DNA of 64,000 bases from Buchnera aphidicola (Acyrthosiphon lactucae) (lineage in GTDB: Bacteria > Pseudomonadota > Gammaproteobacteria > Enterobacterales > Enterobacteriaceae). This document shows positions 1,748 through 55,743 of this stretch, piece by piece; positions within the stretch are counted from its first letter, which is position 1; every line of letters begins with the position of its first letter. The DNA lies in the NCBI RefSeq assembly GCF_005083565.1, contig NZ_CP034891.1, forward strand, positions 434,001 through 498,000, in the 5' to 3' direction. The position numbers and the translations under genes are program-made. The notes beneath the pieces are model-generated. The model searched no databases and was not told where the DNA came from. It saw only the letters and a program-made list of their open reading frames with translations.

Positions 1748-2496
1748 ATGTGGTTTAATATTATTACTATTTTTCCAGAAATGTTTCGTGCAATTACTGA
1801 TTACGGTATCGTCGGACAGGCAATTAAAAAAGAAATTATTAATATTAATTTTTTTAATCCAAGAAATTTTAGTAAAAATAAATATAAATCTATAGATAAT
1901 CGTCCTTATGGAGGAGGACCTGGAATGTTAATGAGTGTTGAACCATTGTATCTAGCTATTAAAGCAGCAAAATCTGAATTAAAAGATGCTTCTATTATTT
2001 ATTTATCTCCTCAAGGAAACGAATTACAACAAAGTAATATAGAACAACTAATTAAGAAAAAAAAAATTATTTTTATATGTGGTCGATATGAAGGAATAGA
2101 TCAAAGAATTATTGATTATCAAGTAGATGAAGAATGGTCGATCGGAAATTATATACTTACTGGAGGAGAATTAGCTTCTATGGTTATGATTGACTCTATC
2201 TCACGATTAATTCCAGGTGTTATTAAAACTAAAAAATCAATAGAAGAAGATTCTTTTTCTAATAATTTACTTGATTATCCTAGTTATACCCGACCTAAAA
2301 TTATAGAAAAAATGTCAGTACCAGAAGTATTGTTGTCTGGAAATCATAATAAAATTCGTATTTGGCGTTTAAAGCAGTCGCTTGGAAAAACATGGATTAA
2401 AAGACCTGATCTTTTAAAAAAAAAATATTAACAAAAGAAGAAAAAATTCTATTAGAAGAATTTAAAGAAAAATTTAGAAAAAAAAATAATTATTAA
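1748..2496 (+). CDS. trmD: tRNA (guanine-37-N1)-methyltransferase TrmD, frame broken at a 10-A tract near the 3' end
   Basis: TrmD makes m1G37 in tRNAs reading CNN/CCN codons and prevents +1 frameshifting. The chosen ATG at 1748 begins MWFNIITIFPEMFRAITDYG, matching the E. coli start; an in-frame upstream ATG overlaps rimM and adds 17 unrelated residues. The trefoil-knot SAM site is seen (YLSPQG, GRYEGID, SIGNYILTGGELA). The annotated-frame stop at 2429-2431 follows ten A's (2416-2425). In the -1 frame the sequence continues to a stop at 2494-2496 with LTKEEKILLEEFKEKF, homologous to the E. coli C-terminus (LTEEQARLLAEFK). One extra A gives a gapless 249-residue protein (E. coli 255). Without slippage the product lacks about 20 C-terminal residues. 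Confidence 0.93.
2416..2425 (+). repeat. A10 tract at the trmD frame break
   Basis: Ten A's sit at the point where the trmD frame changes from the ATG frame to the -1 frame. Eleven (or eight) A's would make a single open reading frame; eleven gives a gapless alignment with E. coli TrmD. Candidate site of RNA polymerase slippage. Confidence 0.85.
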
Positions 2497-2528
2497 TTTC
2501 TTTTGTTATCTGAATTAAAGAGGAAATC

Positions 2529-2876
2529 ATGCTCAGTATAATTCAAAAAATAGAAAAAAAACAAATCAAAAAAAACATACCTATTTTTAGACCAGGAGAT
2601 ACTATAGAAGTCAAGGTATGGGTTATCGAAGGTTCTAAAAAACGTCTACAATCCTTTGAAGGAATAGTGATAGCAATAAGAAATCGTTATTTAAATTCTT
2701 CTTTTACTGTACGTAAAATATCTAATGGAGAGGGTATCGAAAGAGTTTTTCAAACACATTCTCATAGTATTAATGAAATTTTTATCAAAAGAAAAGGTTT
2801 AGTTAGAAAAGCAAAATTATATTATTTAAGAAATAGAACTGGTAAAGCTGCTCGTATTAAAGAAAGACTAAATTAA
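2529..2876 (+). CDS. rplS: 50S ribosomal protein L19
   Basis: This 115-residue protein has the E. coli L19 length, with conserved [22 protein letters not shown] and the basic C-terminus [17 protein letters not shown]19 lies at the 30S-50S interface. A strong ribosome binding site (AAGAGGAAATC) precedes the ATG. It is the last gene of the rpsP operon and is followed by a hairpin terminator. Confidence 0.98.
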
Positions 2877-2883
2877 TATTAAT

Positions 2884-2913
2884 ATGCAGTCATGACAAAA
2901 TTCTTGACTGCAT
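2884..2913 (+). terminator. Rho-independent terminator after rplS
   Basis: ATGCAGTCA pairs with TGACTGCAT (9 bp, loop 12), followed by TATTTTTTAT. It lies 8 bases after the rplS stop and ends the rpsP operon; facing tldD is read toward it from the other side. Confidence 0.85.
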
Positions 2914-2956
2914 TATTTTTTATGGTATATAAATCATAGTATTTTTTTCAAGAAAA

Positions 2957-4408
2957 TTAAATAGTTCCACCTATAGTTAATTTTTCTAATTTCATAGATG
3001 GCTGACCTATTCCTACTGGAATATTTTGACCGTCTTTTCCACACATACCCATTCCCTGATCCATTTTTAAATCGTCTCCAACCATTGATATTTGTTGCAT
3101 AACTTCTAAACCTGATCCTATTAGAGTTGTATTTTTAATCGGTGTAATAATTTTACCTTGTTTAATTAAATAAGCTTCTGCGGTAGAAAAAACAAATTTT
3201 CCAGACGTAATATCAACTTGACCGCCGGAAAAATTTACAGCATATACTCCGTAATGAACACTTTTAATTATATCATCTATTTTGGAATTTCCAGATAACA
3301 TATAAGTATTAGTCATACGAGGCATAGGTAAATACGAATAAGATTCACGACGTCCATTTCCAGTAGATTCTGTTCCCATTAAACGGGCATTAAGTTTATC
3401 TTGCATATACTTTTTTAGTATTCCATTTTCAATTAAAATATTATATTGACCAGGAGTACCTTCATCATCAATACTTAATGATCCACGTTGATCTTTAATT
3501 GTACCATCATCAATAATAGTACATAATTCTGATGCAACTTTTTTACCAATCATATTAGTAAATATTGAAGTTCCTCTTCTATTAAAGTCACCTTCTAAAC
3601 CATGTCCTACTGCTTCATGTAATAAAACGCCTGGCCATCCAGATCCTAAAACTACTGGAAATGTTCCTGAAGGAGCTTCTTTTGAAGATAAATTCAATAG
3701 AGCTATACGAACAGCTTCTTTAGACCAATAGTCAATTCTAATTTCTCTTGAAAAATCATCTTTATTTAAAAAAAAGTTATAGTCAGTACGACTTCCTCCT
3801 CCACTGCGACCACGTTCTCTTTTTCCGCGATCTTCAACTAAAACACTAATTGAAAATTGTACTAATGGTCTGATATCTGAAACTAAATTGCCATCAGTAG
3901 AAGCAATTAAAATTTGTTCATATGATCCTGTCAAATTTGCATTTACTTCTATAACCCGATGATCAAGACTACGTGCTATATGATCTGCTCTGTAGAGAAG
4001 ATCGATTTTTTCTCTATAGGAGAAAATGTTTAACGGATTAGTAGTACTATAAAAGGGTTGTATTTTTTTTCTTGATAAAGTTTTTGTTTTTCCTGAACCT
4101 TTTATAAAAATAATACTACGTGCTTTTTGAGTACTTATTCTTAAAGAATCTCTTGATATTTGATCTGCATATGCAAATCCTGTACTTTCACCTGTAATGG
4201 CTCTTACACCAATACCTTCGTCTGAATGATAATTTCCTTCTTTTATAATACCATTTTCTAGCGTCCAAGATTCATGAAGATGAGATTGAAAATAAAAATC
4301 TCCATAATCTATTTTTGATGTGCAAAGATCTTCTAAAGAAACAAAAATATCTTGATGGTTTATTTTGTTTGCAGTTAATAAAGATTCACTAACTAATTCA
4401 AATGTCAT
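2957..4408 (-). CDS. tldD: Metalloprotease TldD
   Basis: This 483-residue protein (E. coli 481) is the catalytic half of the TldD/TldE (PmbA) peptidase, which degrades unfolded peptides and in E. coli takes part in microcin B17 maturation and CcdA turnover. The zinc-binding HEAVGH is at about residues 264-269, followed by [12 protein letters not shown]. The C-terminal metal ligand region (GMCGKDGQ...G.GQPSMK) is intact. It stands alone on the minus strand between the rplS terminator and aroQ; tldE is not in the window. Confidence 0.96.
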
Positions 4409-4533
4409 TTAAACTCACTTAATTTATGATAATATTATAAATATCTATTATAAAAGATAAAACAAAAAACAAAAAATATTTTTTAAAATTATATTTTAAT
4501 ATATTCAGTATATAATTATTTAAAGAGCTAAAA

Positions 4534-4989
4534 ATGAAAAAAAATATAAATATATTACTAATAAATGGACCTAATTTAAATCTTTTAGGAACACGAGAAA
4601 CTGAAATTTATGGAAAAGTTACTTTGTCTGATTTATTAAAAAATTTAGAAAAAAAATCAAAAAAACTTAACATATCTTTACATCATATACAATCTAATGC
4701 AGAACATGTATTAATTGATAAAATTCATTCTTCAAGAAAAAATATTGATTATATAATTATTAATCCAGCAGCATTTACACATACTAGTATAGCTATTAGA
4801 GATGCATTAATTGCAGTTAACATTCCTTTTATTGAAGTTCATATTTCAAATATTTATTCTAGAGAAAATTTTCGCTCTCATTCATGGTTGTCTGATATTT
4901 CACAAGGTGTCATTTGTGGACTAGGTCTAGATGGTTATTATTGGGCATTAAAGACAATATCTAATAGAATGATGAGCTTTAAAAAATAA
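4534..4989 (+). CDS. aroQ: 3-dehydroquinate dehydratase, type II
   Basis: This enzyme of 151 residues dehydrates 3-dehydroquinate to 3-dehydroshikimate in the shikimate pathway, feeding aromatic amino-acid supply to the host. Type II signatures are clear: [13 protein letters not shown] at the N-terminus with the lid tyrosine (IYGK), [11 protein letters not shown] and [15 protein letters not shown]. coli uses the unrelated type I enzyme AroD, so this is a different family from the model relative. It is transcribed divergently from tldD. Confidence 0.95.
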
Positions 4990-5037
4990 AAAAATTATAA
5001 TTCTAAAAAATAATATAATAGTTAAAAACAAACTTTT

Positions 5038-5074
5038 GCACTCTCTTGATTTCTTATTAAAAAATAGAAAGTGC
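5038..5074. terminator. Hairpin between convergent aroQ and fis
   Basis: GCACTCTC pairs with GAAAGTGC (one mismatch, long AT-rich loop) between two convergent genes, with a T/A-rich flank (GTTTAAAAAAA). It could serve both genes. Confidence 0.5.
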
Positions 5075-5104
5075 AGTTTAAAAAAATAAAAATCTTTAAA
5101 ATAA

Positions 5105-5401
5105 TTAATTCATATTATATTTTTTTAATTTTTTTCGTAATGTACTACGATTTATTCCCATCATTAAAGCAGCACGTGTTTGATTTCCTCTAGTATACTG
5201 CATTATTGTATCTAAAAGCGGCTGTTCTAATTCTGATAATACTAATTCATATAAATTATTTACATGTTTACCATTTAAATTTAATAAATAATATTTTAAA
5301 GATTTTTTAATTAATTCACGTAAAGGTTTTTTTTTATTTTTATCTTGAATATTTAAAGTGGATAAAAATAAAAATTCTGTATTTATTTTTTTTTCTAGCA
5401 T
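5105..5401 (-). CDS. fis: DNA-binding protein Fis
   Basis: Fis is a nucleoid protein that bends DNA and activates rRNA and tRNA promoters. I choose the ATG at 5401 ([10 protein letters not shown]), which gives 98 residues, exactly the E. coli length; the longer in-frame start at 5455 adds 18 residues with no counterpart. The C-terminal helix-turn-helix ([20 protein letters not shown]) is almost unchanged from E. coli, while the N-terminal arm has drifted. In E. coli fis follows dusB; here dusB is absent. Confidence 0.96.
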
Positions 5402-5560
5402 GATACTATCAACTCTCAATTTTTTTATATTGTATATATTATTTTTTAAAATCATACTTAAAAAAATAATTTTTTATGTATTAAATAATATTTTTTAAAA
5501 TTTTTTATAAAATAAATAATATGTTTCATTAAAATCAATTTAATAAATAAAAAAATTTTA

Positions 5561-6529
5561 TTAAATATTATATATTTGAGAAATAAGTTCCTGCATATCT
5601 TGAGGAAGAGGTATTGTCCAAGACATTAAATTTTTATTAATAGGATGATGAAAAGAAAGACGGTTAGCATGTAATGCTTGACGAGAAAATTTATATATTT
5701 TATTATTATCTTCATCTTTTCTACAATTTAATTGAATTTGTGAACCACCATAAAAAGGATCTCCAACTAATGGATATTTAATATATAACATGTGAACACG
5801 AATTTGATGAGTACGTCCTGTTTCTAATCGTATTGCTATATGTGTATAAGATTTAAAACGATTAATTATTTTATAATGTGTCACTGATTTTTTCCCTAAT
5901 TTATGAACCATCATACAGGTCCTTTTAGTACGATGACGCATTATAGGCTTATTTATAGTTCCACCTGAGATCATTTTTCCTTTAACAACCCCTTCATATT
6001 CTCGAATAATTTTTCTTTTTTTTAATAATTCTAATAAACAATTATAAGAAAAAAAAGTTTTTGCGATTACCATTAATCCACTAGTATCTTTATCTAAACG
6101 ATGAACTATACCTGCACGGGGTATATATTTGATATTTTTATAATGATATAATAAAGAATTTAAAATAGTACCTTTTTCATTTCCAGGACCTGGATGAACA
6201 ACTAAACCAGCAGGTTTATTAATCACTAATATATGATCATCTTCATAAATTATATTTAAAAAAATTTTTTCAGGAACGTTAAACAATACATCTTTAGAAA
6301 AGGGGTAAATTGTAAGAATTTCACCTCCTAATATTTTTTTATCGGGTTGATTTATAATATTTTTATCAACACATACTCTATTCATAATAATTAAATTTTT
6401 TAAGTAAGAACGAGAATATTCTTTAAATAATTTAGATAAAACTAAATCCAATCTTTGTCCTGAAAATAAATAATATGATGCAATACTACTTAATTCTACT
6501 TTTTTCAATATAATTATCCTTGTATCCAC
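5561..6529 (-). CDS. rluD: 23S rRNA pseudouridine(1911/1915/1917) synthase RluD
   Basis: This 322-residue protein (E. coli 326) modifies helix 69 of 23S rRNA. An N-terminal S4 domain (GQRLDLVLSKLFKEYSRSYL) precedes the RluA-type catalytic domain, whose aspartate motif HRLDKDTSGL is present, with GRTHQIRVHM and LVGDPFYGG. It is divergent from bamD, as in E. coli (rluD next to yfiO/bamD). Confidence 0.96.
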   Translation of the reverse strand: MDTRIIILKKVELSSIASYYLFSGQRLDLVLSKLFKEYSRSYLKNLIIMNRVCVDKNIINQPDKKILGGEILTIYPFSKDVLFNVPEKIFLNIIYEDDHILVINKPAGLVVHPGPGNEKGTILNSLLYHYKNIKYIPRAGIVHRLDKDTSGLMVIAKTFFSYNCLLELLKKRKIIREYEGVVKGKMISGGTINKPIMRHRTKRTCMMVHKLGKKSVTHYKIINRFKSYTHIAIRLETGRTHQIRVHMLYIKYPLVGDPFYGGSQIQLNCRKDEDNNKIYKFSRQALHANRLSFHHPINKNLMSWTIPLPQDMQELISQIYNI

Positions 6530-6665
6530 ATGAATATTCTTGTAACTTCAATACTGAATCTTTAATATTTACAAATATAATATTCTATTTTTAGAATATG
6601 ATATTCTATATTATTATAAACATAAATATTTTTGAAAAAAAATTTTATTAATTTAAATTGAACAC

Positions 6666-7406
6666 ATGATAATGAAAAAAAAGAATAGTATTATATTTAT
6701 ATGTATGGTTTTATTTTTAAATTTAACAGTTCATTCTAAATCTTTAAAAAATAATTATTTTGTAGAAACATATACTCTCTATGAAAAATCTAAAAAAGAA
6801 TTAAAAAAAGAACATTTTGATAATGCTATATTTATATTAGAAAAGATAAAAAAAAATAATATTAGTAGTTTTAGTAATGATAAAATTCAAATGCATTTAA
6901 TTTATGCTTACTATAAAAATTTAAATTTCAATATGGCTCAAAAAAACATAAAAGAATTTATATATTCCTATCCAAACCATCCCAATTTAGATTACGTTAT
7001 ATATATACAATGTTTAATTAGCATCTCTTTAGATAAAAACATATTTTTTAAAATTTTACCTCTAGACTACCATAAAAATGATCTTAATTATGCAATAAAT
7101 GCATTCTTTCAATTGAAAAAATTTATTTATCAGTATCCTAAAAGTTTCTATGTTGTAAATGCCAAAAAAAATTTAATATATCTCAAAAATCGTTTATCTG
7201 AAAGTGAACTTGAAATCTTAAAATTTTATTTTTTTAAAAAAGAATATATAGCTGTTGTAAATAGAGGAGAAGAAATAATTCAGAAATATTCAGAAACACC
7301 AGCTGCACGGAAAGCTCTCATATATATAGAAAAATCTTATAAAGCATTGAAAATTTTTGATACAGCAAAAAAAATATCAAAAATAATTTCATTAAATAAA
7401 ATTTAA
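6666..7406 (+). CDS. bamD: Outer membrane assembly factor BamD (YfiO), lipobox cysteine missing
   Basis: BamD is the essential TPR lipoprotein of the BAM complex that inserts beta-barrel proteins in the outer membrane. The 246 residues align along their length with E. coli BamD (245): an N-terminal hydrophobic signal, then [31 protein letters not shown] and [22 protein letters not shown]. Where E. coli has LAGC, this protein has no cysteine (NLTVHSKS), so lipid anchoring is not apparent. The start could be the ATG at 6666 or 6672; no ribosome binding site decides it. Confidence 0.88.
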
Positions 7407-7458
7407 GAGAATTAAAATTTATATAAAAAATATTTATTTTTACATTAAAAGCAAAATA

Positions 7459-10095: not shown

Positions 10096-10200
10096 AAATA
10101 ACAAGTATTTTTTATATATAAAATCAATTAAATGTTGAAAACGTTATTAATTTAAATTTATTTAAAATATGTAATAAGAATATATTATAAAAATATTTTA

Positions 10201-10467: not shown

Positions 10468-10473
10468 TCAATA

Positions 10474-10504: not shown

Positions 10505-10563
10505 CTTTCATATTTAATTGCAAATAAATACAACAGACATTTTTTTACGTAAAAAAATTATGT

Positions 10564-14031: not shown

Positions 14032-14744
14032 ATGATAAAAAAAATATTTATTATTATAGTTACTACGTTTTTTTTTTATCTTCGTATCAAAAAAGTTATT
14101 TAAAAAAAAATACTATAAAAAATTTCTACCAAGCAAAACTTACAGCAATTCAAATTCACAAAAATGCACCAGGTTCTTTTTATTGTGGATGCAAAATTAT
14201 TTGGAAAGAAAAAAAAGGAATTCCTAATCTATATTCTTGTGGATATAAAATTCGAAAAAACAAAAATCGTGCAACAAGAATTGAATGGGAACATGTAGTA
14301 CCAGCATGGCAATTTGGACATCAGAAAAAATGTTGGAAAAAAGGAGGTCGTAAAAAATGTGTCTCTAATAAAATATATCAATTTATTGAATCTGATCTTC
14401 ATAATTTACAACCAGCTATTGGAGAAATAAATGGGGATCGTTCTAATTTTATGTATGGTGAATTAAAAAATAAAATTTCACAATATGGAAGATGTAATAT
14501 GAAAATAGATTTTCAAAAAAAAATAGCAGAACCACCTGAAAGAGCCCGTGGTACTATAGCTAGAACTTATTTTTATATGAGTGAAAAATACAATATTATT
14601 TTATCTAAACAAGAAAAAAAAATATTTTTGAAATGGGATAGAAAATTTCCTGTAACAGAATGGGAATGTGAAAGAGAAAAAATAATATTTAAGATACAAG
14701 GTAATCATAACAATTATATCTATAAAAAGTGTTATAAAAAATAA
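14032..14744 (+). CDS. endA: DNA-specific endonuclease I (EndA), frame broken at a 10-T tract in the signal peptide
   Basis: EndA is a periplasmic nuclease. From the ATG at 14032 the frame reads [15 protein letters not shown] and then terminates shortly after a T10 tract (14068-14077). Reading the -1 frame after the tract gives LSSYQKS and then the whole enzyme to the stop at 14742-14744, including FYCGCKI, the betabeta-alpha-Me motif region [33 protein letters not shown] and TEWECERE. One added T gives 237 residues (E. coli 235) with a well-formed signal peptide. Every residue after the tract looks under selection, so this seems a slippage-rescued gene rather than a decaying pseudogene. Confidence 0.85.
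14068..14077 (+). repeat. T10 tract at the endA frame break
   Basis: Ten T's lie in the hydrophobic core of the endA signal-peptide codons; eleven would fuse the ATG frame to the enzyme frame. Poly(U) slippage is less documented than poly(A), but the frame geometry is the same as in the other five broken genes. Confidence 0.8.
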
Positions 14745-15646: not shown

Positions 15647-16306
15647 TTATTTTTTGATAGTTTGTATTCCATTTTTTTTTCCAATTAAAATAATATCGGC
15701 ACTTCTAGAAGCAAATAAACCTACTGTTACTACTCCTGGTAATGAATTAATTTTTTTTTCCATTGATATAGGATCTTTTATAGATAAATTATATACATCT
15801 ATAATTATATTACCATTATCTGTGATAAAATTTTTCCGATATTTCGGTATTCCTCCAATTTTTACCATTTCCTGCAAAAAATAAGAAAAGGCCATAGGAA
15901 TGATTTCAACAGGTAGAGGAAATTTTCCCAGAACATCTACTTTTTTTGTTTTATCAATAATACAAATAAATTTTTTTGCGATTTTAGCAATAATTTTTTC
16001 TCTAGTTAAAGCACCGCCTCCACCTTTAATCATTTGCATACGACTATTGATTTCATCAGCACTATCAACATAAATATTAAGTGAACTAAAATTTTTTAAG
16101 TTAAATACTTCTATACCCTTTTTTTTCAATAATACAGTAGAAGAATTAGAACTAGAAACTGCCCCATATATTAAATTTTTTATTGTACTTAAAGCTTCAA
16201 TAAAATAAAAAATAGTTGTACCAGTTCCTACTCCAATAATAGTACCAGGATGAATATAATCTAATGCGGCCCATGCCGCTTTTTTTTTTAGTTCATTTAA
16301 ATTCAT
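15647..16306 (-). CDS. rpiA: Ribose-5-phosphate isomerase A
   Basis: RpiA interconverts ribose-5-phosphate and ribulose-5-phosphate in the pentose phosphate pathway. The 219 residues equal the E. coli length; signatures are [33 protein letters not shown] and [10 protein letters not shown]. The N-terminus contains an A10 tract (16280-16289 as T's on the plus strand) that is in frame (NELKKKAAW), a useful contrast with the broken tracts elsewhere. Confidence 0.96.
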
Positions 16307-16846: not shown

Positions 16847-18529
16847 ATGAATACTAAAATAAAAAATAATAATTTTATTTGTCAAATTATTAATAAAGAT
16901 TTTAATAAAAATAAAGATTTATCTTTTCGTACTCGTTTTCCACCTGAGCCAAATGGATATCTTCATATTGGTCATGCCAAATCAATATGTTTAAATTTTG
17001 AACTTGCACATTTATATAAAGGACAATGTAATCTTCGATTTGATGACACAAATCCACTAAAAGAAAATATAAAATATATTGACTCTATAAAATATGATAT
17101 TAATTGGTTAGGTTATAAATGGTATGGGGAAATTCGCTATTCTTCTGAATATTTTTCAAAATTATATCAATATGCACAAGAATTAATTAAAAAAGGTTTA
17201 GCTTATGTAGATCACTTAAACAAAGAACAAATACGTGAATATAGAGGGACTTTAAATACTCCCGGTAAAAATAGTCCCTATAGAAATAGAACAATTAAGG
17301 AAAACATAGAACTTTTCCAAAAAATGAAAAAAGGAGAATTTTCTGAAGGAGAAGCATGTTTACGTGCTAAAATAGATATGAGTTCTTCTTTTATTATTAT
17401 GCGCGATCCTGTTTTATATCGAATTATTTTCACTAAACATCACCAGACTAAAAAAAAATGGTGCATATATCCTATGTATGATTTTGCTCATTGTCTGTCT
17501 GATTCTATTGAAGGAATTACTCATTCATTATGTACATTAGAATTTCAAGATAATAAATGTTTATATAATTGGATTTTAAAGCACACTAGTGTTACACACC
17601 ATCCTAAACAATATGAATTTTCTCGACTTAATCTAGAATTTTCAATTTTATCTAAAAGAAAATTAAAAATACTTATTGATAAAAATATAATAAAAGGATG
17701 GGACGATCCTCGAATACCTACACTTTCTGGATTAAGAAGAAAAGGATATACGCCATCTTCTATTAAAGAATTTTGTCAAAAAATCGGTGTTACTAAACAA
17801 AATAATTTAATAGAATTTGGAATGCTAGAATATTGTATTCGAAAAGAGCTAAATCAGACTGCTATACGTACTATGGCTATACTAGAACCAATTAAAGTTT
17901 TTTTATATAATTTAGATCAAAATCATAAAGAAAAATTTATAGTTCCGAATCATCCTGATAATCCTGAAATGGGTACTCATGAAATTATTTTTACTAATAC
18001 TATATATATTGAACGTTCAGATTTTAAGGAAAAATACGACAAAAAATACAAAAGATTAAAACTTGGAGAAAAAATACGTCTAAGATATTCTTATATAATT
18101 ACAGCAGAAAAAATAGAAAAAGATAAAGACAATAACATTATTAGTATAATATGTTATTGTGATTTACATACTTTAGGTAAAAAACCAAAAAACAATAAAA
18201 ACCCTCCTGTAATCCATTGGATTTCAGTAAACAATACGATTCCAGCAGAATTTAGATTATATAGTCAGTTATTCAATATAAAAAATCCAGAACAACAAAA
18301 AAATTTTTTATTTTACATCAATCCAGCATCTTTAATAAAAAAAAATGGCTTTATAGAAAAAAAAATAGGAGAAACAATACAAAAAAAAATCAATGATAAT
18401 ATAAAATTATTTTTTCAATTTGAAAGAATTGGTTATTTTTGCATAGATAATATAGATTCTAAAAAAAATTATTTAATATTTAATCGTACTGTTAGCTTAC
18501 GCGATATATGGAATTCAAAAAAAAATTAG
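16847..18529 (+). CDS. glnS: Glutaminyl-tRNA synthetase
   Basis: This class I synthetase of 560 residues (E. coli 554) charges tRNA-Gln, encoded just upstream on the other strand. The HIGH motif is in [16 protein letters not shown] and the KMSKS loop reads LSKRKL; C-terminal beta-barrels contact the anticodon ([13 protein letters not shown]). The N-terminus is a few residues longer than in E. coli. Confidence 0.97.
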
Positions 18530-22953: not shown

Positions 22954-23427
22954 TTATTTTTTTATAAGCATGGCAATCGCTTGACAGGCAATTCCTTCTT
23001 TTCTTCCAATACATCCTATTTTTTTAGAGCTGGTAGATTTAATACTAATATTATCTATTTTAATATTAAGATCTAATGATAAATTTGATCTCATGAAAAA
23101 TATATAAGGTGACATTTTTGGATCTTCTGCAATAATAGTAACGTCAATATTAGATATATTATAATTTTCTAATCTAATTTTTGTCCAAATGTTTTTTAAA
23201 AGTATTCTACTATTAATATTTTTATACATTTTATTGTCACTTGGGAAAAAAGTACCAATGTCACCCATTGCAGCAGCACCTAATAATGCATCTATTATAG
23301 AATGTATTAATAAATCACCGTCTGAATGAGCAATTAAACCTTTCTTATAAGGAATCAAAACACCACCAATAATTAATGGTTTTTTACTTCCAAAAGAATG
23401 AAGATCAAAACCATATCCAATCCTCAT
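22954..23427 (-). CDS. ispF: 2-C-methyl-D-erythritol 2,4-cyclodiphosphate synthase
   Basis: IspF (157 residues, E. coli 159) carries out the fifth step of the MEP isoprenoid pathway. The metal-binding GYGFDLHSF and [12 protein letters not shown] motifs are present, as is [12 protein letters not shown] at the C-terminus. It starts 17 bases downstream of ispD. Confidence 0.97.
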
Positions 23428-24237: not shown

Positions 24238-24453
24238 TCATATTTTTTTTTTGTCTTTATCAAGATGATGATTAAATTTGTTAATCTCCAAGATTATTTG
24301 ATTATTACGCATATCAAGATATTCATTATTTTTTTTTTGCATTTCAACTTTTTTATATATTTTTATGTAATCTAAAATACCATTTTTTCCCAGCCAGAGA
24401 GAATATTGCAACCAAAAAAGTAAGACAAATAAAAATATTTTTAATATCTTCAT
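24238..24453 (-). CDS. ftsB: Cell division protein FtsB, C-terminally truncated
   Basis: FtsB is a bitopic divisome protein that bridges FtsL and FtsQ. The N-terminus is unmistakable (FWLQYSLWLGKNGILDY), with one membrane segment at residues 4-21 followed by a coiled coil. Only 71 residues are encoded against 103 in E. coli; the conserved C-terminal FtsQ-binding part (RNELSM..PGE.F) is missing. The final codons lie on an A10 tract (T's at 24243-24252), but neither shifted frame restores a recognisable C-terminus. It appears to be a genuine shortening. Confidence 0.85.
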   Translation of the reverse strand: MKILKIFLFVLLFWLQYSLWLGKNGILDYIKIYKKVEMQKKNNEYLDMRNNQIILEINKFNHHLDKDKKKI

Positions 24454-46572: not shown

Positions 46573-47424
46573 ATGTACATTTTTTTTCCTGACTTAAATC
46601 CTGTAATTTTTACTATTGGTCCTATATCTGCTCGTTGGTATGGTTTGATGTATATAATTAGTTTTTTATTTGCAATGTGGTATGGAAAAAAACTCAATAT
46701 TAAAAATAAAAAAAAATGGCATGAAAAAAAAGTCGAGACACTAGTATATGCTATTTTTTTAGGATCCTGTATTGGAGGGAGAATAGGATATATTATTTTT
46801 TATAATTTTACATATTTTTCTAAAAATATATTTCACATTTTTTATATATGGGAAGGAGGAATGTCATTTCATGGAGGATTAATAGGTGCCATATTTATAA
46901 TAGTATATTTTTCATTTAAATATAAAAAAAAAATACTAGAAATATCTGATTTTATAACTCCATTGATACCTTTTGGTTTAGGTGCTGGAAGATTAGGAAA
47001 TTTTATTAACAGTGAACTATGGGGTCGTGTATCAACAAATTTTTCATATGCAATGATTTTTCCTAATTCTCAATATCAAGATACAGAAATAATAAAAAAA
47101 TATCCTCAATTAACACCATTATTAGAAAAATATGGTGCATTACCACGTCATCCTTCACAATTATATGAATTTTTTTTAGAAGGAATTCTATTGTTTTTTA
47201 TAATTTATTTTTTTTCAAAAAAAAATAGACCAACAGGTAGTATTAGCGGTTTATTTTTAATTTGTTATGGAGTATTTAGAATATTTATAGAATTTTTTAG
47301 AGAACCAGATCCTCAAATAGGACTATTTAAAAATATGATTACTATGGGACAAATATTATCATTACCAATGATTATTTCTGGATTAATTATCATGTATAAA
47401 TCTTTCTATAAAAATCAATCATGA
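46573..47424 (+). CDS. lgt: Prolipoprotein diacylglyceryl transferase
   Basis: Lgt (283 residues, E. coli 291) attaches diacylglycerol to the lipobox cysteine of prolipoproteins in the inner membrane. Seven or so hydrophobic segments are visible; the catalytic region GGMSFHGGLIGA and the signature GRLGNFINSELWGR are intact. It is 6 bases upstream of thyA, the E. coli lgt-thyA pair. Its retention is notable because BamD and NlpD in this window have lost their lipobox. Confidence 0.97.
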   Translation: MYIFFPDLNPVIFTIGPISARWYGLMYIISFLFAMWYGKKLNIKNKKKWHEKKVETLVYAIFLGSCIGGRIGYIIFYNFTYFSKNIFHIFYIWEGGMSFHGGLIGAIFIIVYFSFKYKKKILEISDFITPLIPFGLGAGRLGNFINSELWGRVSTNFSYAMIFPNSQYQDTEIIKKYPQLTPLLEKYGALPRHPSQLYEFFLEGILLFFIIYFFSKKNRPTGSISGLFLICYGVFRIFIEFFREPDPQIGLFKNMITMGQILSLPMIISGLIIMYKSFYKNQS

Positions 47425-47430
47425 GGAATT

Positions 47431-48225
47431 ATGAAACAATATATTAAATTAATTAAAAAAATAATAAAAGTTGGAAATCAAAAGAAAGATCGTACAGGTA
47501 CAGGTACTTTATCTATTTTTGGTTATAACATGAAATTTAATTTAAAGAAAGGTTTCCCACTTCTTACAACAAAAAAATGTCATATTCCATCTATTATTTA
47601 TGAACTTTTATGGTTTTTAAAAGGAGATACTAATGTAAACTATCTTAATAAAAACAAAATATCAATTTGGAATAATTGGGCAAATAAATTTGGAGATGTT
47701 GGTCCAATATATGGAAAACAATGGAGAAGTTGGAGTACATTAGAAGGAAGTAACATCGATCAAATAAAGAATATATTAATAGAATTAAAACAAAATCCTG
47801 ATTCCCGTAGAATGATAGTTTCTAGTTGGAATGTAGGAGATATAAATAAAATGCGATTGCCTCCTTGCCATGTTCTTTTTCAATTTTATGTTTTTAAAAA
47901 TATATTAAGTTGTCAACTATATCAACGTTCTTGTGATGTATTTCTCGGACTACCTTTTAATATAGCTAGTTATGCAATACTTATACATATGGTAGCACAA
48001 CAGTGTAATTTTAAAGTTGGAGAATTTTTATGGACAGGAGGCGATGTTCACTTATATAATAATCATATTGAATTAGCAAAAAAACAAATACTTAGAACAC
48101 CTCGTAAACTTCCAGAATTAATAATTCTTAAAAAACCTAAATCATTATTCCAATATTCTTTTGAAGATTTTAAAATTGTTGGATACCATCCTTATCCTTC
48201 TATTAAAGGGAAAATATCTATATAA
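47431..48225 (+). CDS. thyA: Thymidylate synthase
   Basis: ThyA (264 residues, as in E. coli) methylates dUMP. The nucleophile C146 is in [12 protein letters not shown], and [25 protein letters not shown] and HLYNNH are conserved. A GAGGAATT site precedes the ATG. Confidence 0.98.
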
Positions 48226-48282
48226 AAAATTTATATTCAAAAGAATATCTTTATAAATTCACTTGGATTAATTTTTATACAT

Positions 48283-49608
48283 ATGAAATATATATACATA
48301 AAAACTTGGGGTTGTCAAATGAATGAATATGATTCATCTATGATAATCACCTTATTACAAAAAAAAAACAAATATTTAATTACTGAATCAGTAGAAAACG
48401 CTGATATATTAATATTAAATACTTGTTCTATAAGAGAAAAAGCTCAAGAAAAAGTTTTTCATCAACTTGGAAGATGGAAAAAAATAAAAAATAAAAATCC
48501 AAAAGTTATTATTGCTGTAGGAGGTTGTGTAGCAACTCAAGAAGGTAAAGAAATTTTTAAAAGAGCAAATTACGTAGATATTATATTTGGAACTCAAACT
48601 TTACATAAATTACCTAAAATGATTTCTGAAGTAGAAAAAACAAAAAAATTATCTATTGATATTAGTTTTCCTAAATTAGAAAAATTTAAACATGTTTTAG
48701 AATCTAAAATAACAGGATATACAGCAAATGTTTCTATTATGGAAGGATGTAATAAATACTGTTCATTTTGTATAGTACCGTATACTAGAGGAAATGAAAT
48801 TAGTCGTCCATGTGATGATATTTTATTTGAAATATCAATTTTAGCAAAACAAGGAGTAAGAGAAATAAATTTATTAGGACAAAATGTTAATGCATATCAA
48901 GGTCCGACTTTTAACGGAAAAATTTGTTATTTTTCAGAATTAATCAGATTAGTTGCAGAAATAGATGGTATTGATAGAATTCGTTTTATTACTAGCAATC
49001 CACTCGAATTTACTGATGATATTATCGAAGTATATGAAGATACACCAAAACTAGTTAGCTTTTTACATCTTCCTGTTCAAAGTGGTTCTAATAAAATTCT
49101 AAATTTAATGAAACGTTCATATACAATAGAAGATTATGAGTCTATTGTTAAAAAACTCATTATTGCTAGACCTAATATTCAAATTAGTTCTGATTTTATT
49201 GTAGGTTTTCCTGGGGAATCTGAAATAGACTTTCAACAAACTATGATATTTATAAAAAATATAAATTTTGATATGAGCTTTAGTTTTATATACTCTAACC
49301 GACCTGGAACACCTGCTTCTAAAATGGAAGATAATATTGATATCAAGGAGAAAAAAAGACGTTTGTATATTTTACAAGATCGTATAAATAAACAAACTAT
49401 GTCATGGAGCAGAAAAATGTTTGGAAGCATACAATCTATTTTAGTAGAAGGTGTGTCTAATGAAAATATTATGTATTTATATGGACGAACAGAAAACAAT
49501 AGAATTGTTACTTTTAAAGGTTCATCTAAAATGATTGGACAATTTGTTAATATAAAAATTAAAAAAGTACATACACATTCATTAAAAGGTGAATTATTTG
49601 AAAATTAA
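48283..49608 (+). CDS. miaB: tRNA-2-methylthio-N6-dimethylallyladenosine synthase MiaB
   Basis: MiaB (441 residues, E. coli 474) is a radical-SAM methylthiotransferase acting on i6A37. N-terminal cluster cysteines are in [19 protein letters not shown] and GGCVATQ; the radical-SAM CxxxCxxC is in [17 protein letters not shown]. The TRAM domain is present, and about 30 residues at the C-terminus are absent relative to E. coli. ybeZ, which follows miaB in E. coli, has been lost. Confidence 0.96.
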
Positions 49609-49622
49609 TTCAATTAAAATAT

Positions 49623-50089
49623 ATGAAAAATATTATTATAAATCTTCAACTTTGTTGTAAAAAAAACAAAAATATACCAAAAAAAATACATTTTAAAAAA
49701 TGGATCCAAAAAATTTTATATAAAAAAAAAATATTAATATAATAACAATAAGAATTGTAGACGAATTAGAAATTAAAAAGTTAAATTTTACTTATAGAAA
49801 AAAAAACAAACCAACAAATATTTTATCATTTCCTTTTAATAATTTTATCAAAGTTAATCATAAATTATTAGGAGATCTAGTATTATGTAAAAACATAATA
49901 GAAAAAGAATCTCTAAAATATAATAAATCACTGGAATCACATTGGGCTCATATAACAATACATGGAATATTACATTTATTAGGATATGATCATCAAAACG
50001 ATAAAGAAACAGATATTATGGAAAAAATGGAAAATAAAATAATGGTATCTTTAAATTATAAAAAACCACATATTTTAAAAAATTATTAA
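49623..50089 (+). CDS. ybeY: Endoribonuclease YbeY, frame broken at a 10-A tract
   Basis: YbeY is a metal-dependent RNase for 16S rRNA maturation and ribosome quality control. From the ATG at 49623 the frame reads MKNIIINLQLCCKK...WIQKILYKKK and ends at a stop at 49740-49742, just after an A10 tract. In the -1 frame the protein continues ITIRIVDELEIKKLNLTYR...PTNILSFPF to a stop at 50087-50089 and includes the metal motif HGILHLLGYDH. Adding one A gives 155 residues, exactly the E. coli length, with a gapless alignment through the tract. It precedes corC as in E. coli. Confidence 0.9.
49722..49731 (+). repeat. A10 tract at the ybeY frame break
   Basis: Ten A's at the frame change in ybeY; eleven restore one frame and the exact E. 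coli protein length. Confidence 0.88.
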
Positions 50090-50169
50090 TCTTTTATAAA
50101 AAATATTTTAACTCAAGCATTTCTACAATAGAATAGTAAAATATATTTTAAAATAGATAATCTAATACC

Positions 50170-51054
50170 ATGAGTGATAAGTATTCTCAAAACTGTGATA
50201 AAATTAATAGAAAAGGTTTTTTTTCCATTTTATTAAATCATATTTTTCATGATGAGCCTAAAAATAGAGAAGAATTATTAGTATTAATTCGTGATTCAGA
50301 ACAAAATGAACTAATTGATCAAGATACTTGCGATATGTTAGAAGGAGTTATGCATATTGTCAAAAAAAGAATAAAAGAAATTATGATCCCAAGAACACAA
50401 ATGATAACATTGAAATTAAACTATAATTTAAATGAATGTCTTGATATTATCATCGAATCTGCTCATTCGCGTTTTCCAGTAATGAGTAGTGATAATAATT
50501 ATGTTGAAGGATTTTTAATTGCTAAAGATTTATTACCATTTATGAAGAATTCAAATAACGTTTTTTTTATAAAAAATATATTGCGACCAGCCGTTGTAGT
50601 TCCAGAAAGTAAATATGTAGATAGAATGTTAAAAGAATTTCGTTCACAAAGAAACCATATGGCTATAGTAATAGACGAATTTGGAGCTGTTTCAGGTTTA
50701 GTAACTATAGAAGATATACTTGAATTAATCGTTGGAGAAATTGAAGATGAATATGATGACGAAGAAACATTAAATATTAGAAAAATTCAAAAATGCACAT
50801 TTTCTATTAGAGCACTTACAGAAATAAAAGAATTCAATGAAACTTTCAATACTAATTTTAGTGATAAAGAAGTAGATACTATAGGAGGATTAGTTATGAA
50901 AGAATTTGGTCATTTGCCAAGTCGTGGTGAAAGTATTAATATTGATGGTTATTCTTTTAAAATTTCTATAGCAGACAGTACAAAAGTTATACAACTACAT
51001 GTAACTATTCCAGACAACAAAGTACCAGTACTAATAGAATCAGAACAAAAATAA
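50170..51054 (+). CDS. corC: CorC/YbeX family CBS-domain protein (magnesium/cobalt efflux or ribosome-linked)
   Basis: The 294 residues (E. coli YbeX 292) have two CBS domains (IMIPRTQMITL...RFPVMSSDNNYVEGFLIAKDLL; HMAIVIDEFGAVSGLVTIEDILELIVGEIEDEYD) and a C-terminal CorC_HlyC domain. It has no membrane segments, so it is the cytosolic CorC type. It follows ybeY as in E. coli; lnt, the next E. coli gene, is missing. Confidence 0.94.
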   Translation: MSDKYSQNCDKINRKGFFSILLNHIFHDEPKNREELLVLIRDSEQNELIDQDTCDMLEGVMHIVKKRIKEIMIPRTQMITLKLNYNLNECLDIIIESAHSRFPVMSSDNNYVEGFLIAKDLLPFMKNSNNVFFIKNILRPAVVVPESKYVDRMLKEFRSQRNHMAIVIDEFGAVSGLVTIEDILELIVGEIEDEYDDEETLNIRKIQKCTFSIRALTEIKEFNETFNTNFSDKEVDTIGGLVMKEFGHLPSRGESINIDGYSFKISIADSTKVIQLHVTIPDNKVPVLIESEQK

Positions 51055-51147
51055 TGTTTTGTATTTAAACAAATAAAGAAATAAAATTATTTTTTAATTG
51101 ATATTAAAAAGTATTATATTTATTAAATATTTCTTTCAGAGAAAAAT

Positions 51148-53736
51148 ATGGAAAAAGAATATTCACCAAAAAAAATAGAACTTTACGTACAGGAATATTG
51201 GAAAAAAAATAAAACTTTTAAAGTAAAAGAAGATTTTAAAAAAGAAAAATATTATTGTCTTCCTATGCTCCCATACCCTTCTGGAAAACTACATATGGGT
51301 CATGTTAGAAATTATACTATTAGCGATGTTATTGCTCGATATCAAAGAATGCTAGGGAAAAATGTCTTACAACCAATGGGTTGGGATGCTTTTGGTTTAC
51401 CTGCCGAAGAAGCTGCAATAAAAAACAATACAACTCCTTTTTCCTGGACTGAAAAAAATATAAAATATATGAAAAAACAACTTCAATCATTAGGTTTTAG
51501 TTATGATTGGAGTCGTGAAATAACTACATGTAATCCAGAATATTACCGTTGGGAACAATGGTTTTTTACTAAATTATATGAGAAAAAACTTGTCTATAAA
51601 AAAAATAGTTTAGTTAACTGGTGTTCCCACGATAACACAGTTTTAGCAAACGAACAAGTTATTGATGGCTGCTGTTGGAGATGTAATAATAAAATAATAA
51701 TAAAAAAAATTCCACAGTGGTTTATAAAGATAAGAAATTATGCTGAATCTTTATATCAAGATTTAAAAAAATTAACTGACTGGCCTGAAAATGTAAAAAA
51801 TATGCAAAGGAATTGGATTGGACGGATAAAGGGATTTCAAATCACCTTAAATATTTTTAATACTCCTAAAAAATTAAAAGCGTTTACTAATAGATTAGAT
51901 CTTATAATGGGTATTACATATGTTTCAATATCTATTTGTCATGAATTATCTGTAAATTTATCTAAAAAAAATAAAATAATTAAAAAATTTATAAAGAAAT
52001 ATAAATATATCTCACCAGAAGAATTTAAAAAAGTCAAATATATAGGAATCAATACAAATCTATTTATTGTTCATCCGATTACAGAAGAAAAAATACCAAT
52101 TTGGATTTCAAATTTTACTATAAAAGAATATGGTACAAATGCAATATTATGTACTCCTGGACATAATGAAAACGATTGGAATTTCGCAGTCAAAAATAAT
52201 TTAAAAATTAAATATGTTGTTTTTAATCCTAAAAATAAAAAATTAAATTCAGATAGTTCTTTTATAAATATAAAAGGAATATTATTTAATTCTCAAGAAT
52301 TTGATGGGTTAAACTTTCAAGATAGTAGTGAAAAAATAAAAATAATATTATATCAAAAAAAAATATTAGAAGAAAAAATTAATTATAGATTACAAGACTG
52401 GTGCGTATCAAGACAACGTTATTGGGGAACTCCTATTCCAATGGCAAAATTTAAAAACGGGAAAATAATACCAATACCAGAAAATAAATTACCTGTAATC
52501 TTACCAAAAATTAAAAAAAATATTAATTTATTACAAAATCCGATTGACCGTAATTCTAATTGGGCTAAAATTTGTATAAATAATAAAAAAGCTATTAGAG
52601 AGACAGATACTTTTGATACGTTTATGGAGTCATCTTGGTACTATGCAAGATATACCTGTCCAAATTTTAATATAGGTATGATTGATTCAATAGCATCAAA
52701 ATATTGGCTGCCTGTCGATCAATATGTTGGTGGAATAGAACATGCAATTATGCATTTAATGTATTTTAGATTTTATCATAAATTATTACGTGATTTTAAA
52801 TTAGTAGATTCTGATGAACCAGTTAAAAGTTTATTATGTCAAGGTATGGTTCTTGCTGAAGCTTTTTATGAAATTGATAAAAAATCGCAACGAAATTGGT
52901 TGCATTCCTCATCAGTATTGATAAAACGTAATTTAAAAGGAGAAATTATTAAATCATATAATAAAGAAGGAAAAGAATTAATCTATGCAGGCATGATTAA
53001 AATGTCTAAATCAAAAAATAATGGCATCGAACCAGAACTAATGATTCAACGCTATGGAGCTGATACAATCCGTTTATTTATAATGTTTTCTGCCCCTGTA
53101 GAATCTTCATTAGAATGGAAAGAATCTGGTGTCAAAGGAGTATATCGTTTTTTAAATAAACTTTGGAAACTAATATTAAATTATATTGAAATACAAAACA
53201 CACATCAAAAAATGAATTTTAATTCTTTAAACTATCAACAGAGTGAATTACGTTACCAATTACATAAAACTATTTCTAAAGTTTCTGATGATATAAGTCG
53301 TCGAAAAACATTTAATACTGCTATTTCGGCAATTATGGAATTAGTAAACAAACTAGTAAAAGCTCCCATACAAGAAGAACAAGATAAATCTATTATGAGG
53401 GAATCTTTGATTTGTATTATCAAAATGCTATATCCATTTACACCTCATTTTTGTTTTTTTGTTTGGAATTACTTTTATGAAAAAACACCTATTGATAATG
53501 AAAAATGGCCTATGGTTAAAGAAGATATACTTCTTAAAAAATATGATATAATTATCGTTCAAATTAATGGAAAAACACGACATACTATAAAAATATCTAA
53601 TAATTTAAATAAAGAAGAAATTTTTTTACATATAAAAAATGAACCTACAATAAAAAAATATTTAGACAATGTTAATATAAAAAACATAATATACATTCCT
53701 AAAAAAATAATAAATTTTGTACTATACACTAAATAA
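51148..53736 (+). CDS. leuS: Leucyl-tRNA synthetase, editing site altered
   Basis: LeuRS (862 residues, E. coli 860) charges tRNA-Leu. The HMGH and KMSKS (618-622) signatures and the zinc region are intact, so aminoacylation should work. The CP1 editing domain is present but its active site has drifted: the E. coli TTRPDT (247-252) reads TNRLDL at the same residue numbers, so Thr248 is Asn and Thr252 is Leu, and the later GHDQRD reads GHNEND with only the last Asp kept. Hydrolysis of mischarged tRNA-Leu is therefore likely impaired (inference). lptE, the next E. coli gene, is lost. Confidence 0.96.
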   Translation: MEKEYSPKKIELYVQEYWKKNKTFKVKEDFKKEKYYCLPMLPYPSGKLHMGHVRNYTISDVIARYQRMLGKNVLQPMGWDAFGLPAEEAAIKNNTTPFSWTEKNIKYMKKQLQSLGFSYDWSREITTCNPEYYRWEQWFFTKLYEKKLVYKKNSLVNWCSHDNTVLANEQVIDGCCWRCNNKIIIKKIPQWFIKIRNYAESLYQDLKKLTDWPENVKNMQRNWIGRIKGFQITLNIFNTPKKLKAFTNRLDLIMGITYVSISICHELSVNLSKKNKIIKKFIKKYKYISPEEFKKVKYIGINTNLFIVHPITEEKIPIWISNFTIKEYGTNAILCTPGHNENDWNFAVKNNLKIKYVVFNPKNKKLNSDSSFINIKGILFNSQEFDGLNFQDSSEKIKIILYQKKILEEKINYRLQDWCVSRQRYWGTPIPMAKFKNGKIIPIPENKLPVILPKIKKNINLLQNPIDRNSNWAKICINNKKAIRETDTFDTFMESSWYYARYTCPNFNIGMIDSIASKYWLPVDQYVGGIEHAIMHLMYFRFYHKLLRDFKLVDSDEPVKSLLCQGMVLAEAFYEIDKKSQRNWLHSSSVLIKRNLKGEIIKSYNKEGKELIYAGMIKMSKSKNNGIEPELMIQRYGADTIRLFIMFSAPVESSLEWKESGVKGVYRFLNKLWKLILNYIEIQNTHQKMNFNSLNYQQSELRYQLHKTISKVSDDISRRKTFNTAISAIMELVNKLVKAPIQEEQDKSIMRESLICIIKMLYPFTPHFCFFVWNYFYEKTPIDNEKWPMVKEDILLKKYDIIIVQINGKTRHTIKISNNLNKEEIFLHIKNEPTIKKYLDNVNIKNIIYIPKKIINFVLYTK

Positions 53737-53764
53737 TACTTATAAAAATAGCACAATTTCTTAT

Positions 53765-54759
53765 ATGAAAAGTATAAATCCAGATGAATTAAAAAAAAAA
53801 TAATGCATAAATTAAACTCCTTTTATATTTTTTTAGGAGAAGATCTTTTCTTATTAGAAAGAAATCAAGATTTAATATTAAATTTTGCATATAAAAAGGG
53901 ATTTTCAGAAAAAGTGATAATTGATATAGAAAAGGATAAAGATTGGGAAAAAGTGATTTTATTTTATAAAAATAAAAATTTATTTTTTAAAAAAACTACT
54001 TTAGTCGTTAATTTTCTTATAAAAAAATTAAATATTGTTTTAGTTAAACATATTCATGAAATATTTTCTGTTTTAAATCTAGATATATTAATCATATTAA
54101 AATTTAATCATTTATCTCGTTTTATTGAAAAGAATAAATTTTTAAACAAATTTAAAAAATTTAATATAGTTTCTTGTTTTACACCGTATAATTTACATTT
54201 TATTAATTGGATCAAATATGAAATTCAAGAAAAAAATATAAATATAGAAGAAAAAGCATTTCTTTTATTATGTAAATACTATGAAGGTAATACTTTATTT
54301 ATATATAAAATTTTAGATATACTATTAATAACATGGCCCAATAGTTGCATCACAGTAGAAAAAATAAAAAAAATTATTATTGATTTTTTTGATTTGTCTC
54401 CATTACATTGGATTAACTCTATATTTCAAGGTCAAATAGAAAAAGCTATTTATATACTAAATCATTTTTGTAAAAAAAAATACAACCCGCTTATTCTAGT
54501 ACGTTCTTTACAAAAGGATTTATTTAAATTAATTTATATTAGACGTGAAAAAACAATAATTACTAATTCACTATTAGATAAAAATAATATTTGGCATACT
54601 AGATATAAATTTTTTAAAAATGCTTGTAAAAAAATTAATAATAATAGTTTGTTAAAAGCTATTAAAATACTTGTAAAAATAGAAATAAACATTAAAAAAA
54701 AATATAATACTAACGTTTGGAATCAACTACAAGAATTAACTTTAACATTATGTAACTAA
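53765..54759 (+). CDS. holA: DNA polymerase III delta subunit HolA, frame broken at a 10-A tract near the start
   Basis: HolA opens the beta clamp within the clamp loader. The ATG at 53765 reads MKSINPDELKKK and meets a stop at 53801-53803 after an A10 tract. In the -1 frame the protein continues IMHKLNSFYIFLGEDLFLLERNQD to 54759. With one added A, the first 36 residues align without gaps to E. coli (MIRLYPEQLRAQLNEGL...YLLLGNDPLLLQESQD) and the product is 331 residues (E. coli 343). An internal ATG at 53803 could instead give a protein 13 residues shorter. It sits between leuS and nadD as in E. coli. Confidence 0.9.
53791..53800 (+). repeat. A10 tract at the holA frame break
   Basis: Ten A's directly followed by TAATG, where the stop of the first frame and an internal ATG of the second overlap. 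Eleven A's fuse the frames. Confidence 0.85.
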
Positions 54760-54780
54760 GACCCTATATATTAATAAAAA

Positions 54781-55434
54781 ATGGAAAAATTACATGCAAT
54801 ATTTGGTGGAAATTTCGATCCTATTCATTATGGACATATTTATTCTGCTGAAAAATTAGCCAAAGAAATATCTATAGAAAAAATAATATTTTTACCAAAT
54901 AACTGCCCCCCTCATAGAGATAAGACTAAAACATCGATAATAGATAAAATAAAAATGATTAAACTTGCTATTCAGAATAATCCTTTATTCCAAATAAGTT
55001 ATTTAGAAACAAAAAAAAATAATTTTTTTTATACTATAGATACATTAAAAAAAATTAGAAAAACAATAAGTTATTCAAGACCTTTGTGCTTTATAATAGG
55101 AGAAGATAACTTAAAAAAATTCTATCTCTGGAAAGATTGGAAAAAAATATTATTATATTGTCACCTGTTAATTTGTCCTAGAAAACATAAAAAAAATGAT
55201 ATTATTAAAAATAATAATGAATTTAAAAATTGGATCTATTCTAATACAGTATACGATTTTAACTTACTACATCAGAAATCATTTGGTTTAATTTTTTTTT
55301 CAAAAACATCTCTTATTAATATTTCTTCAAGTAAAATAAGAAAAAATTATTCTACGGGCGTAAGTTCTTGTGCACTCTTGCCATCTATTGTAAATAATTA
55401 TATTTTATCAAAAAAATTATACTGTTATAATTAA
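54781..55434 (+). CDS. nadD: Nicotinate-nucleotide adenylyltransferase
   Basis: NadD (217 residues, E. coli 213) makes NaAD in NAD synthesis. The nucleotidyltransferase motif is FGGNFDPIHYGHI, with FLPNNCPPHR and the C-terminal ISSSKIRKN. It follows holA by 21 bases. The cobC, rsfS and rlmH genes that follow in E. coli are absent. Confidence 0.96.
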   Translation: MEKLHAIFGGNFDPIHYGHIYSAEKLAKEISIEKIIFLPNNCPPHRDKTKTSIIDKIKMIKLAIQNNPLFQISYLETKKNNFFYTIDTLKKIRKTISYSRPLCFIIGEDNLKKFYLWKDWKKILLYCHLLICPRKHKKNDIIKNNNEFKNWIYSNTVYDFNLLHQKSFGLIFFSKTSLINISSSKIRKNYSTGVSSCALLPSIVNNYILSKKLYCYN

Positions 55435-55507
55435 TAATATTTTTACTTCTTTATTGGATGTTTTTATAAAACTTAAACAAATAATGTGAAATATATTTAA
55501 TAAAAAA

Positions 55508-55743
55508 ATGAAAAAAAAAAAAATATTATATTGAATCTAATTGGACTACGATGTCCAGAACCGATTATGGTCATAAGAAAAACAATTCGTAATATAAAAA
55601 AAAATGAAAAAATATTAGTTTTATCAGATGATCCGGCAACTAAAAGAGATATTCCAAACTTTTGTTATTTTATGGAACATCAATTATTAAAACATGAAAT
55701 AACAATCAAACCTTATCGTTTTTTGTTAAAAAAAGGATTGTAA
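55508..55743 (+). CDS. tusA: Sulfurtransferase TusA, frame broken at a 13-A tract after the start codon
   Basis: TusA relays sulfur from IscS toward MnmA for 2-thiouridine in tRNA. The body is clear: [17 protein letters not shown] with the active cysteine, then [17 protein letters not shown]. The only ATG upstream (55508) is followed by thirteen A's (55511-55523) and is out of frame; one extra A would give [19 protein letters not shown], 78 residues in total (E. coli 81). Starting instead at TTG 55531 would give 70 residues with an N-terminus shorter than the family. No ribosome binding site is obvious for either. Confidence 0.85.
55511..55523 (+). repeat. A13 tract immediately after the tusA ATG
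   Basis: Thirteen A's, the longest homopolymer I noticed in the window. The frame relation (-1) equals that of the other broken genes; eleven or fourteen A's would join ATG and coding frame. Confidence 0.85.

Follow-up and report, generated by a model that had tools for sequence, protein, structure and literature searches.

One-base deficits at long A/T tracts of ybeY and endA in Buchnera: probably ancient breaks rescued by RNA polymerase slippage

Out-of-frame tracts in ybeY and endA

The window analysed here is a stretch of 64,000 nucleotides of Buchnera aphidicola (Acyrthosiphon lactucae), which corresponds to positions 434001-498000 of the main contig (NZ_CP034891.1) of a genome of 653,487 bases in three contigs, and has a G+C content of 24%. 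Six of its genes, trmD, endA, ybeY, holA, tusA and recC, lose their reading frame at a long run of A or T. A first-pass annotation had reported these breaks, and all of them were confirmed by alignment, frame count or direct reading; the tracts lie at 2416-2425, 14068-14077, 49722-49731, 53791-53800, 55511-55523 and 62266-62275. NCBIfam names TrmD, deoxyribonuclease I (EndA), YbeY, HolA, TusA, RecC and FtsB at seven broken loci, the last being described below with the younger breaks. Frameshift-aware alignment against an intact orthologue gave a one-base deficit in trmD, endA, ybeY, holA and recC, and each of the six genes carries an out-of-frame run of at least 10 bases. The features of ybeY and endA, the main subjects of this study, are as follows.

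49623..50089, plus strand: ybeY (rRNA maturation RNase), starting with the ATG at 49623 and, after a one-base deficit at the tract, ending in the downstream frame with the stop at 50087-50089
49722..49731, plus strand: A10 tract in ybeY, from tract count and frameshift-aware alignment
14032..14744, plus strand: endA (deoxyribonuclease I), with a one-base deficit within the signal-peptide region
14068..14077, plus strand: T10 tract in endA, from tract count and frame count

Downstream of its tract, the window ybeY contains the HxxxHxxxxxH motif. The first ATG, GTG or TTG of this downstream frame lies 98 codons in, which makes a separate start in this copy unlikely. In endA, the alignment junction was placed 16 bases beyond the T10 tract, and thus the exact base of the break is not fixed; counting the frame between the ATG and the FYCGC motif gives the same deficit.

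Distribution and age of the breaks in the genus

Comparison with the orthologous tracts of other Buchnera, as the first-pass annotation had proposed, was performed on a genus sample of 36 genomes including the source genome (G000). A syntenic stretch of ~64.5 kb was extracted from each of the 35 other genomes, 2018 open reading frames were clustered, and 59 groups were retained. For each genome, the closest intact Buchnera orthologue served as query in a three-frame protein-to-DNA alignment with one-base shifts permitted. The 2042 gene-genome alignments yielded 344 frame shifts, of which 120 (102 deficits and 18 excesses) fall at A/T runs of at least 9 and at least 12 residues from the C-terminal end; an alternative count at runs of at least 9, with another distance rule, gave 104 deficits and 23 excesses. 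Junctions within 12 residues of the C-terminal end were excluded from the counts, which removed ftsB, and the counts of breaks per stretch, direction and threshold also omit group C58 and the first 4 residues. Five breaks pass this filter in the window, compared to 1 to 7 per 64 kb stretch in the 35 other genomes; homopolymer frame breaks are ordinary in the genus. None of the six breaks is unique to this strain, and unrelated lineages are broken at the same tracts.

The ybeY gene has a one-base deficit in 24 of the 36 genomes, 23 of them with an A10 tract and one with A9. Two genomes have a one-base excess (A13 and A9), and ten are in frame. All 24 deficits lie at runs of 9-10, whereas A7, which would be equally out of frame, occurs in none. 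In nine of the ten in-frame copies the run is shorter than 10. These in-frame lineages carry different residues or shorter runs at the tract position, and A11 in no case, which shows that the protein does not need the tract lysines. The endA deficit is found in 28 of 35 genomes (26 with T10, two with T9), the other seven being in frame; in one of the 36 genomes the gene was not found. The figure of 28 is the union of 27 genomes by alignment and 27 by frame count: G006, called an excess by an alignment that begins at residue 11, was scored as a deficit from the frame count, and G026 was not countable by frame.

The age of the breaks was assessed by Fitch parsimony. The underlying tree, built from a 5425-column concatenation of 12 proteins, was rooted at its midpoint, and support is weak for some of its inner branches. 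For both ybeY and endA the reconstructed root state is the deficit, suggesting that the two breaks are ancient and shared by descent from the base of the genus. The broken or intact state of ybeY changes six times on the tree (shuffled mean 8.9, minimum 5), and that of endA also six times, compared to a shuffled mean of 6.6. The frame state thus tracks the tree rather loosely, in-frame copies having arisen on several occasions.

Conservation of the tracts and constraint on the coding sequence

The window holds 74 A/T runs of at least 9 bases (53 of 9, 19 of 10, one of 11 and one of 13). The conservation of 73 of them, the remaining one being too near the window end, was scored by the longest run that the relatives show at the aligned position. 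The endA T10 tract ranks first and the ybeY A10 tract second. Among the 35 relatives, 26 have a run of exactly 10 at the endA tract, with one of these copies in frame, and 30 a run of at least 9; at the ybeY tract, 23 have exactly 10 (again one in frame) and 29 at least 9. The next best tract, a T10 at 16280, is kept in 26 of 35 relatives. A given pair would take the first two ranks by chance with a probability of 0.0004, a value that is descriptive only, as ybeY and endA were picked for age after inspection. For all seven out-of-frame tracts against the remaining ones, the one-sided p is 0.04. Tracts of similar length that the first-pass annotation had cited as in frame and assigned to mutS and rpiA indeed sit inside long open reading frames.

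Both sides of the ybeY tract, and endA after its tract, are under purifying selection. In five pairs with both ybeY copies broken, the pooled omega is 0.25 before the tract and 0.22 after it; the corresponding values at the tract position in three intact pairs are 0.28 and 0.13. The pre-tract part of ybeY comprises 32 codons only, and nine individual broken pairs scatter from 0.10 to 0.94. For endA after the tract, omega is 0.19 in the five ybeY-broken pairs and 0.21 in the three ybeY-intact pairs. Twelve control genes give 0.08-0.24 in the broken pairs.

Run length and direction of the breaks

The number of breaks per 1000 in-gene runs rises from 3.0, 5.1, 8.9 and 11.2 at lengths 6 to 9 to 191, 205 and 346 at lengths 10 to 12, a 17-fold jump from length 9 to 10. 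Without ybeY and endA the rates at lengths 9 and 10 are 7.8 and 114, and without the seven hot genes they are 1.0 and 64. A threshold near ten is natural for slippage of RNA polymerase, because the RNA-DNA hybrid is 9 bases (PMC5574713). It supports polymerase slippage without proving it; replication slippage also grows with length. Intergenic runs, examined as a mutational null, gave five polarised changes (four of +1, one of these listed twice, and one of -1), which are too few.

The first-pass annotation had stressed that all six breaks run in the same direction. They are indeed each one base short, but the A10 tract of ftsB is shifted the opposite way, so that six of seven window tracts share the direction of the deficit, and the background is itself skewed: away from long tracts, deficits outnumber excesses 125 to 67, compared to the 104 to 23 at runs of at least 9. 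With ybeY and endA removed, the ratio is 60:21 at such runs versus 118:66 elsewhere, and with the seven hot genes removed it is 17:8 versus 109:55. Counted as distinct gene sites, there are 33 deficits and 12 excesses (p = 0.0025 against 1:1, which is the wrong null given this background). According to PMC5574713, homopolymers account for 151 of the 157 insertions seen in Buchnera RNA, compared to 16 of 57 deletions (70 deletions are counted elsewhere in the same paper), and insertions rise exponentially with run length. As the polymerase mostly inserts at runs, deficits would be favoured for retention.

A model of slippage rescue and its alternatives

We regard an ancient deficit rescued by polymerase slippage as the best explanation for ybeY and endA, and as a likely one. 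An A10 or T10 run leaving the gene one base short would have been present already in the ancestor of the genus and kept since. Slippage of RNA polymerase on the run would lengthen part of the transcripts by one base, and full-length YbeY and EndA would be encoded by these alone. Selection would then preserve both the coding sequence and a run that is uninterrupted and long enough to slip. The genes trmD and tusA probably owe their persistence after younger, recurrent breaks to the same slippage, as holA and recC perhaps do. For ybeY and endA, this rescue, which the first-pass annotation had suggested for all six genes, is well supported though unproved, because the out-of-frame state is old, the tract length is kept, the coding sequence is constrained and, in the window ybeY, the next start comes late. 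It is plausible for trmD and tusA, and possible for recC and holA.

Several observations weigh against this explanation. The genomes are related by descent, so per-genome counts are not independent. The downstream ybeY frame of seven other broken genomes offers a start codon after 11-21 codons, and that of G018 and G020 has an ATG ahead of the tract; an alternative start is conceivable in these strains. The ybeY of G025 carries further damage, and the post-tract omega of ybeY in broken pairs exceeds that in intact pairs (0.22 versus 0.13). The five other out-of-frame tracts rank 24, 25, 28, 34 and 54 of 73, and therefore most breaks are without sign of tract selection. Moreover, Lys and Phe codons are strongly biased to AAA and TTT (AAG 5.6%, TTC 9.2%), which slows the interruption of any run. 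Deletions in runs of Buchnera RNA also rise with length (PMC5574713). Direction as a proof of slippage was rejected, since background breaks already lean about 2:1 toward deficits, and the uniform direction thus adds little.

Alternatively, the ribosome might correct the frame. A -1 shift on A_AAA_AAA or U_UUU_UUU would repair all six deficits; the required direction fits in every case, a slippery heptamer is present, and poly-A heptamers are described as -1 sites (PMC3711429). However, a heptamer needs seven bases only, whereas few breaks occur at runs of 7-9 and their frequency jumps at length 10, a pattern that fits polymerase slippage better, and A7 underlies none of the 24 ybeY deficits. 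In addition, no stimulatory RNA structure was found in the 60 bases after the ybeY tract in 26 sequences, the mean z being 0.11 against simple base shuffles (ybeY only). We thus consider ribosomal correction unlikely, although slippage of polymerase and ribosome can act together. A systematic homopolymer under-call, which the first-pass annotation had itself raised, would mean that the DNA is one base longer and the genes intact. Overlapping A11 windows number 33 in the source genome, compared to 50 in G029 and 65 in G001 (genus range 20 to 101), and each tract of this strain rests on one assembly, so that an error at a single tract is possible. Nevertheless, the length spectrum of the window tracts resembles that of G029 (54, 17, 2), and the ybeY A10 and endA T10 deficits recur genus-wide, including in the putative APS (G029) and putative Sg (G001) genomes (PMC3164680). 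The trmD A10 break is present in the putative APS genome as well, and the tract deficits of holA, tusA and recC, like that of trmD, are also found in other genomes. Both APS and Sg presumably come from Sanger sequencing projects. An under-call is hence very unlikely for ybeY, endA and trmD, less likely for the rest, and quite improbable as a common cause.

Ordinary gene decay, in which the breaks would be first pseudogene steps without a full-length protein, agrees with recC being broken at long runs at several places in eight genomes, plus G013, and with a report that 42 of 69 pseudogenes in four Buchnera genomes are single-genome homopolymer breaks (PMC3164680). It is a better match for recC, and possibly for holA, than for ybeY or endA, in which constraint and, with few exceptions, open downstream frames are kept across the genus; as a general account we find it highly improbable. 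A further extension of polymerase slippage rescue holds that selection keeps the out-of-frame run itself as a fixed damper on the output of the two nucleases via the slippage rate, and that ybeY became slippage-dependent independently in several insect-symbiont genera. This is tentative, and we rather doubt it. The "general layer of expression" put forward in the first-pass annotation is conjectural, as would be any regulatory purpose for it.

Younger breaks in trmD, holA, tusA and recC, and the ftsB tract

The remaining broken genes of the window are listed below.

1721..2493, plus strand: trmD, broken at A10 2416-2425, with ~25 C-terminal residues in the other frame
53765..54759, plus strand: holA, broken at A10 53791-53800, ~9 codons in
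55508..55743, plus strand: tusA, ATG directly followed by A13 (55511-55523) and T, one base short
61319..64000, plus strand, running off the window: recC, frame lost at A10 62266-62275, around residue 315 of 1074
24238..24453, minus strand: ftsB, A10 at 24243-24252 holding one extra base, 11 residues before the reference end

The trmD gene is broken at the A10 position in 7 of 36 genomes, a derived state with at least three changes by Fitch parsimony, and its rescue by slippage is plausible on this distribution. The holA break occurs at the tract in G000 and G012 only (2 of 36). An ATG at 53803, just past the tract, might yield a product short of ~12 residues. For trmD and holA, purifying selection was seen in pairwise comparisons only, the trmD tail being noisy. 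The recC deficit lies at the same place in G000, G002 and G008 (A10) and in G013 (A13), and nearby in G018, among 36 aligned genomes; the recC and holA breaks are scattered over the genus.

The alignment program did not flag tusA, and its deficit was read directly from the sequence. The window copy has no in-frame ATG, and a TTG at 55531 would yield 70 residues. Of the 36 genomes, 28 yielded the tusA motif and 8 did not; 4 of the 28 with the motif share a deficit and lack an in-frame ATG: G000 with A13, and the sister genomes G001, G007 and G009 with A10. In G007 and G009 the open frame contains neither TTG nor GTG. The break is common to the clade of these three and has a separate origin in the window. 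As the same deficit occurs there, rescue of the window tusA is plausible, and the ATG plus A10 tusA of that clade may depend on slippage too. Altogether, the trmD, recC, tusA and holA breaks, each present in 2 to 7 genomes with the source genome included, are not distinguishable from early decay. The frames are broken as the first-pass annotation reads them; trmD loses ~25 residues only, and holA and tusA have a potential start just past the tract.

Other tracts of the region were also recorded. nadD (54781-55434) and the gene at 46573-47424 (groups C43 and C00) are intact in the window and have long-run breaks in 14 and 10 other genomes, respectively, at recurrent sites and in both directions. 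At the A9 of glnS (18517-18525, plus strand), the closest orthologue aligns in a different frame over its final ten residues; this, and a marginal C-terminal match at 22957 (A7), were treated as end effects. In the source genome outside the window, runs of 11 or more A on the plus strand seem concentrated before ~217 kb, among the matches listed.

ybeY outside the genus

A family-wide search found ybeY matches in 244 of 246 genomes. Breaks outside the genus were checked in 12 chosen loci, five of them chosen for a short open frame. In three (loci L257-L259), ybeY is broken near the same place: G250 with an A11 deficit, G144 with an A11 excess and G048 with an A9 deficit. In two others, G119 and G198, the deficit lies closer to the N-terminal end, and the remaining 7 of the 12 showed no break. 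The ybeY of G079 (putative Bp) is in frame. In Blochmannia turneri, another insect symbiont, the same gene is reported as frameshifted, in a report that gives no tract or direction in the part available, unlike the A10 deficit in Buchnera described here (PMC4389277).

Comparison with known systems and implications

The rescue of poly(A) frameshifts by slippage in Buchnera and Blochmannia (PMC5009743, PMC4389277) is reportedly credited to Tamas et al. 2008, and Wernegreen et al. 2010 are said to have described ancient homopolymer frameshifts kept by selection. The latter case is alike in having a frameshift common to related symbionts in an otherwise preserved gene, whereas here the whole Buchnera genus is covered with 36 genomes and the tracts are ranked against other long tracts of the region. 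For the slippage-rescued genes, 12-50% corrected transcripts are given (PMC5009743). They resemble ybeY and endA in the AT-rich insect symbiont, the break at a long A run and the otherwise intact gene, but are cell-wall genes and a histidine gene in PMC5009743, as compared to ybeY and endA, the latter on a T run, seen here at the DNA level. A tally of the same lesion in the same organism lists 8 to 18 homopolymeric frameshifts per genome in Ua, Ak, three A. pisum strains and Sg, one in Bp and three in Cc (Table 1 of PMC3164680); ybeY, endA and trmD are absent from its main text. The literature surveyed, which does not extend to supplements or to the 2008 and 2010 papers, so that an earlier mention is possible, holds no mention of ybeY or endA frameshifts in Buchnera. 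The kind of lesion is known; ybeY and endA apparently add two members to it that are new, of unusual age and well conserved.

Annotation that discards frameshifted genes, as in PMC9116674, would overlook such genes. The lineages with a deficit and those in frame provide a natural experiment on whether tracts are tolerated or selected, and the ten-base threshold is directly measurable in RNA. ybeY is counted among minimal-genome genes (PMC9035817). If the proposed rescue is true, a minimal-genome enzyme of rRNA maturation would, in most members of a symbiont genus, depend on slippage of the polymerase.

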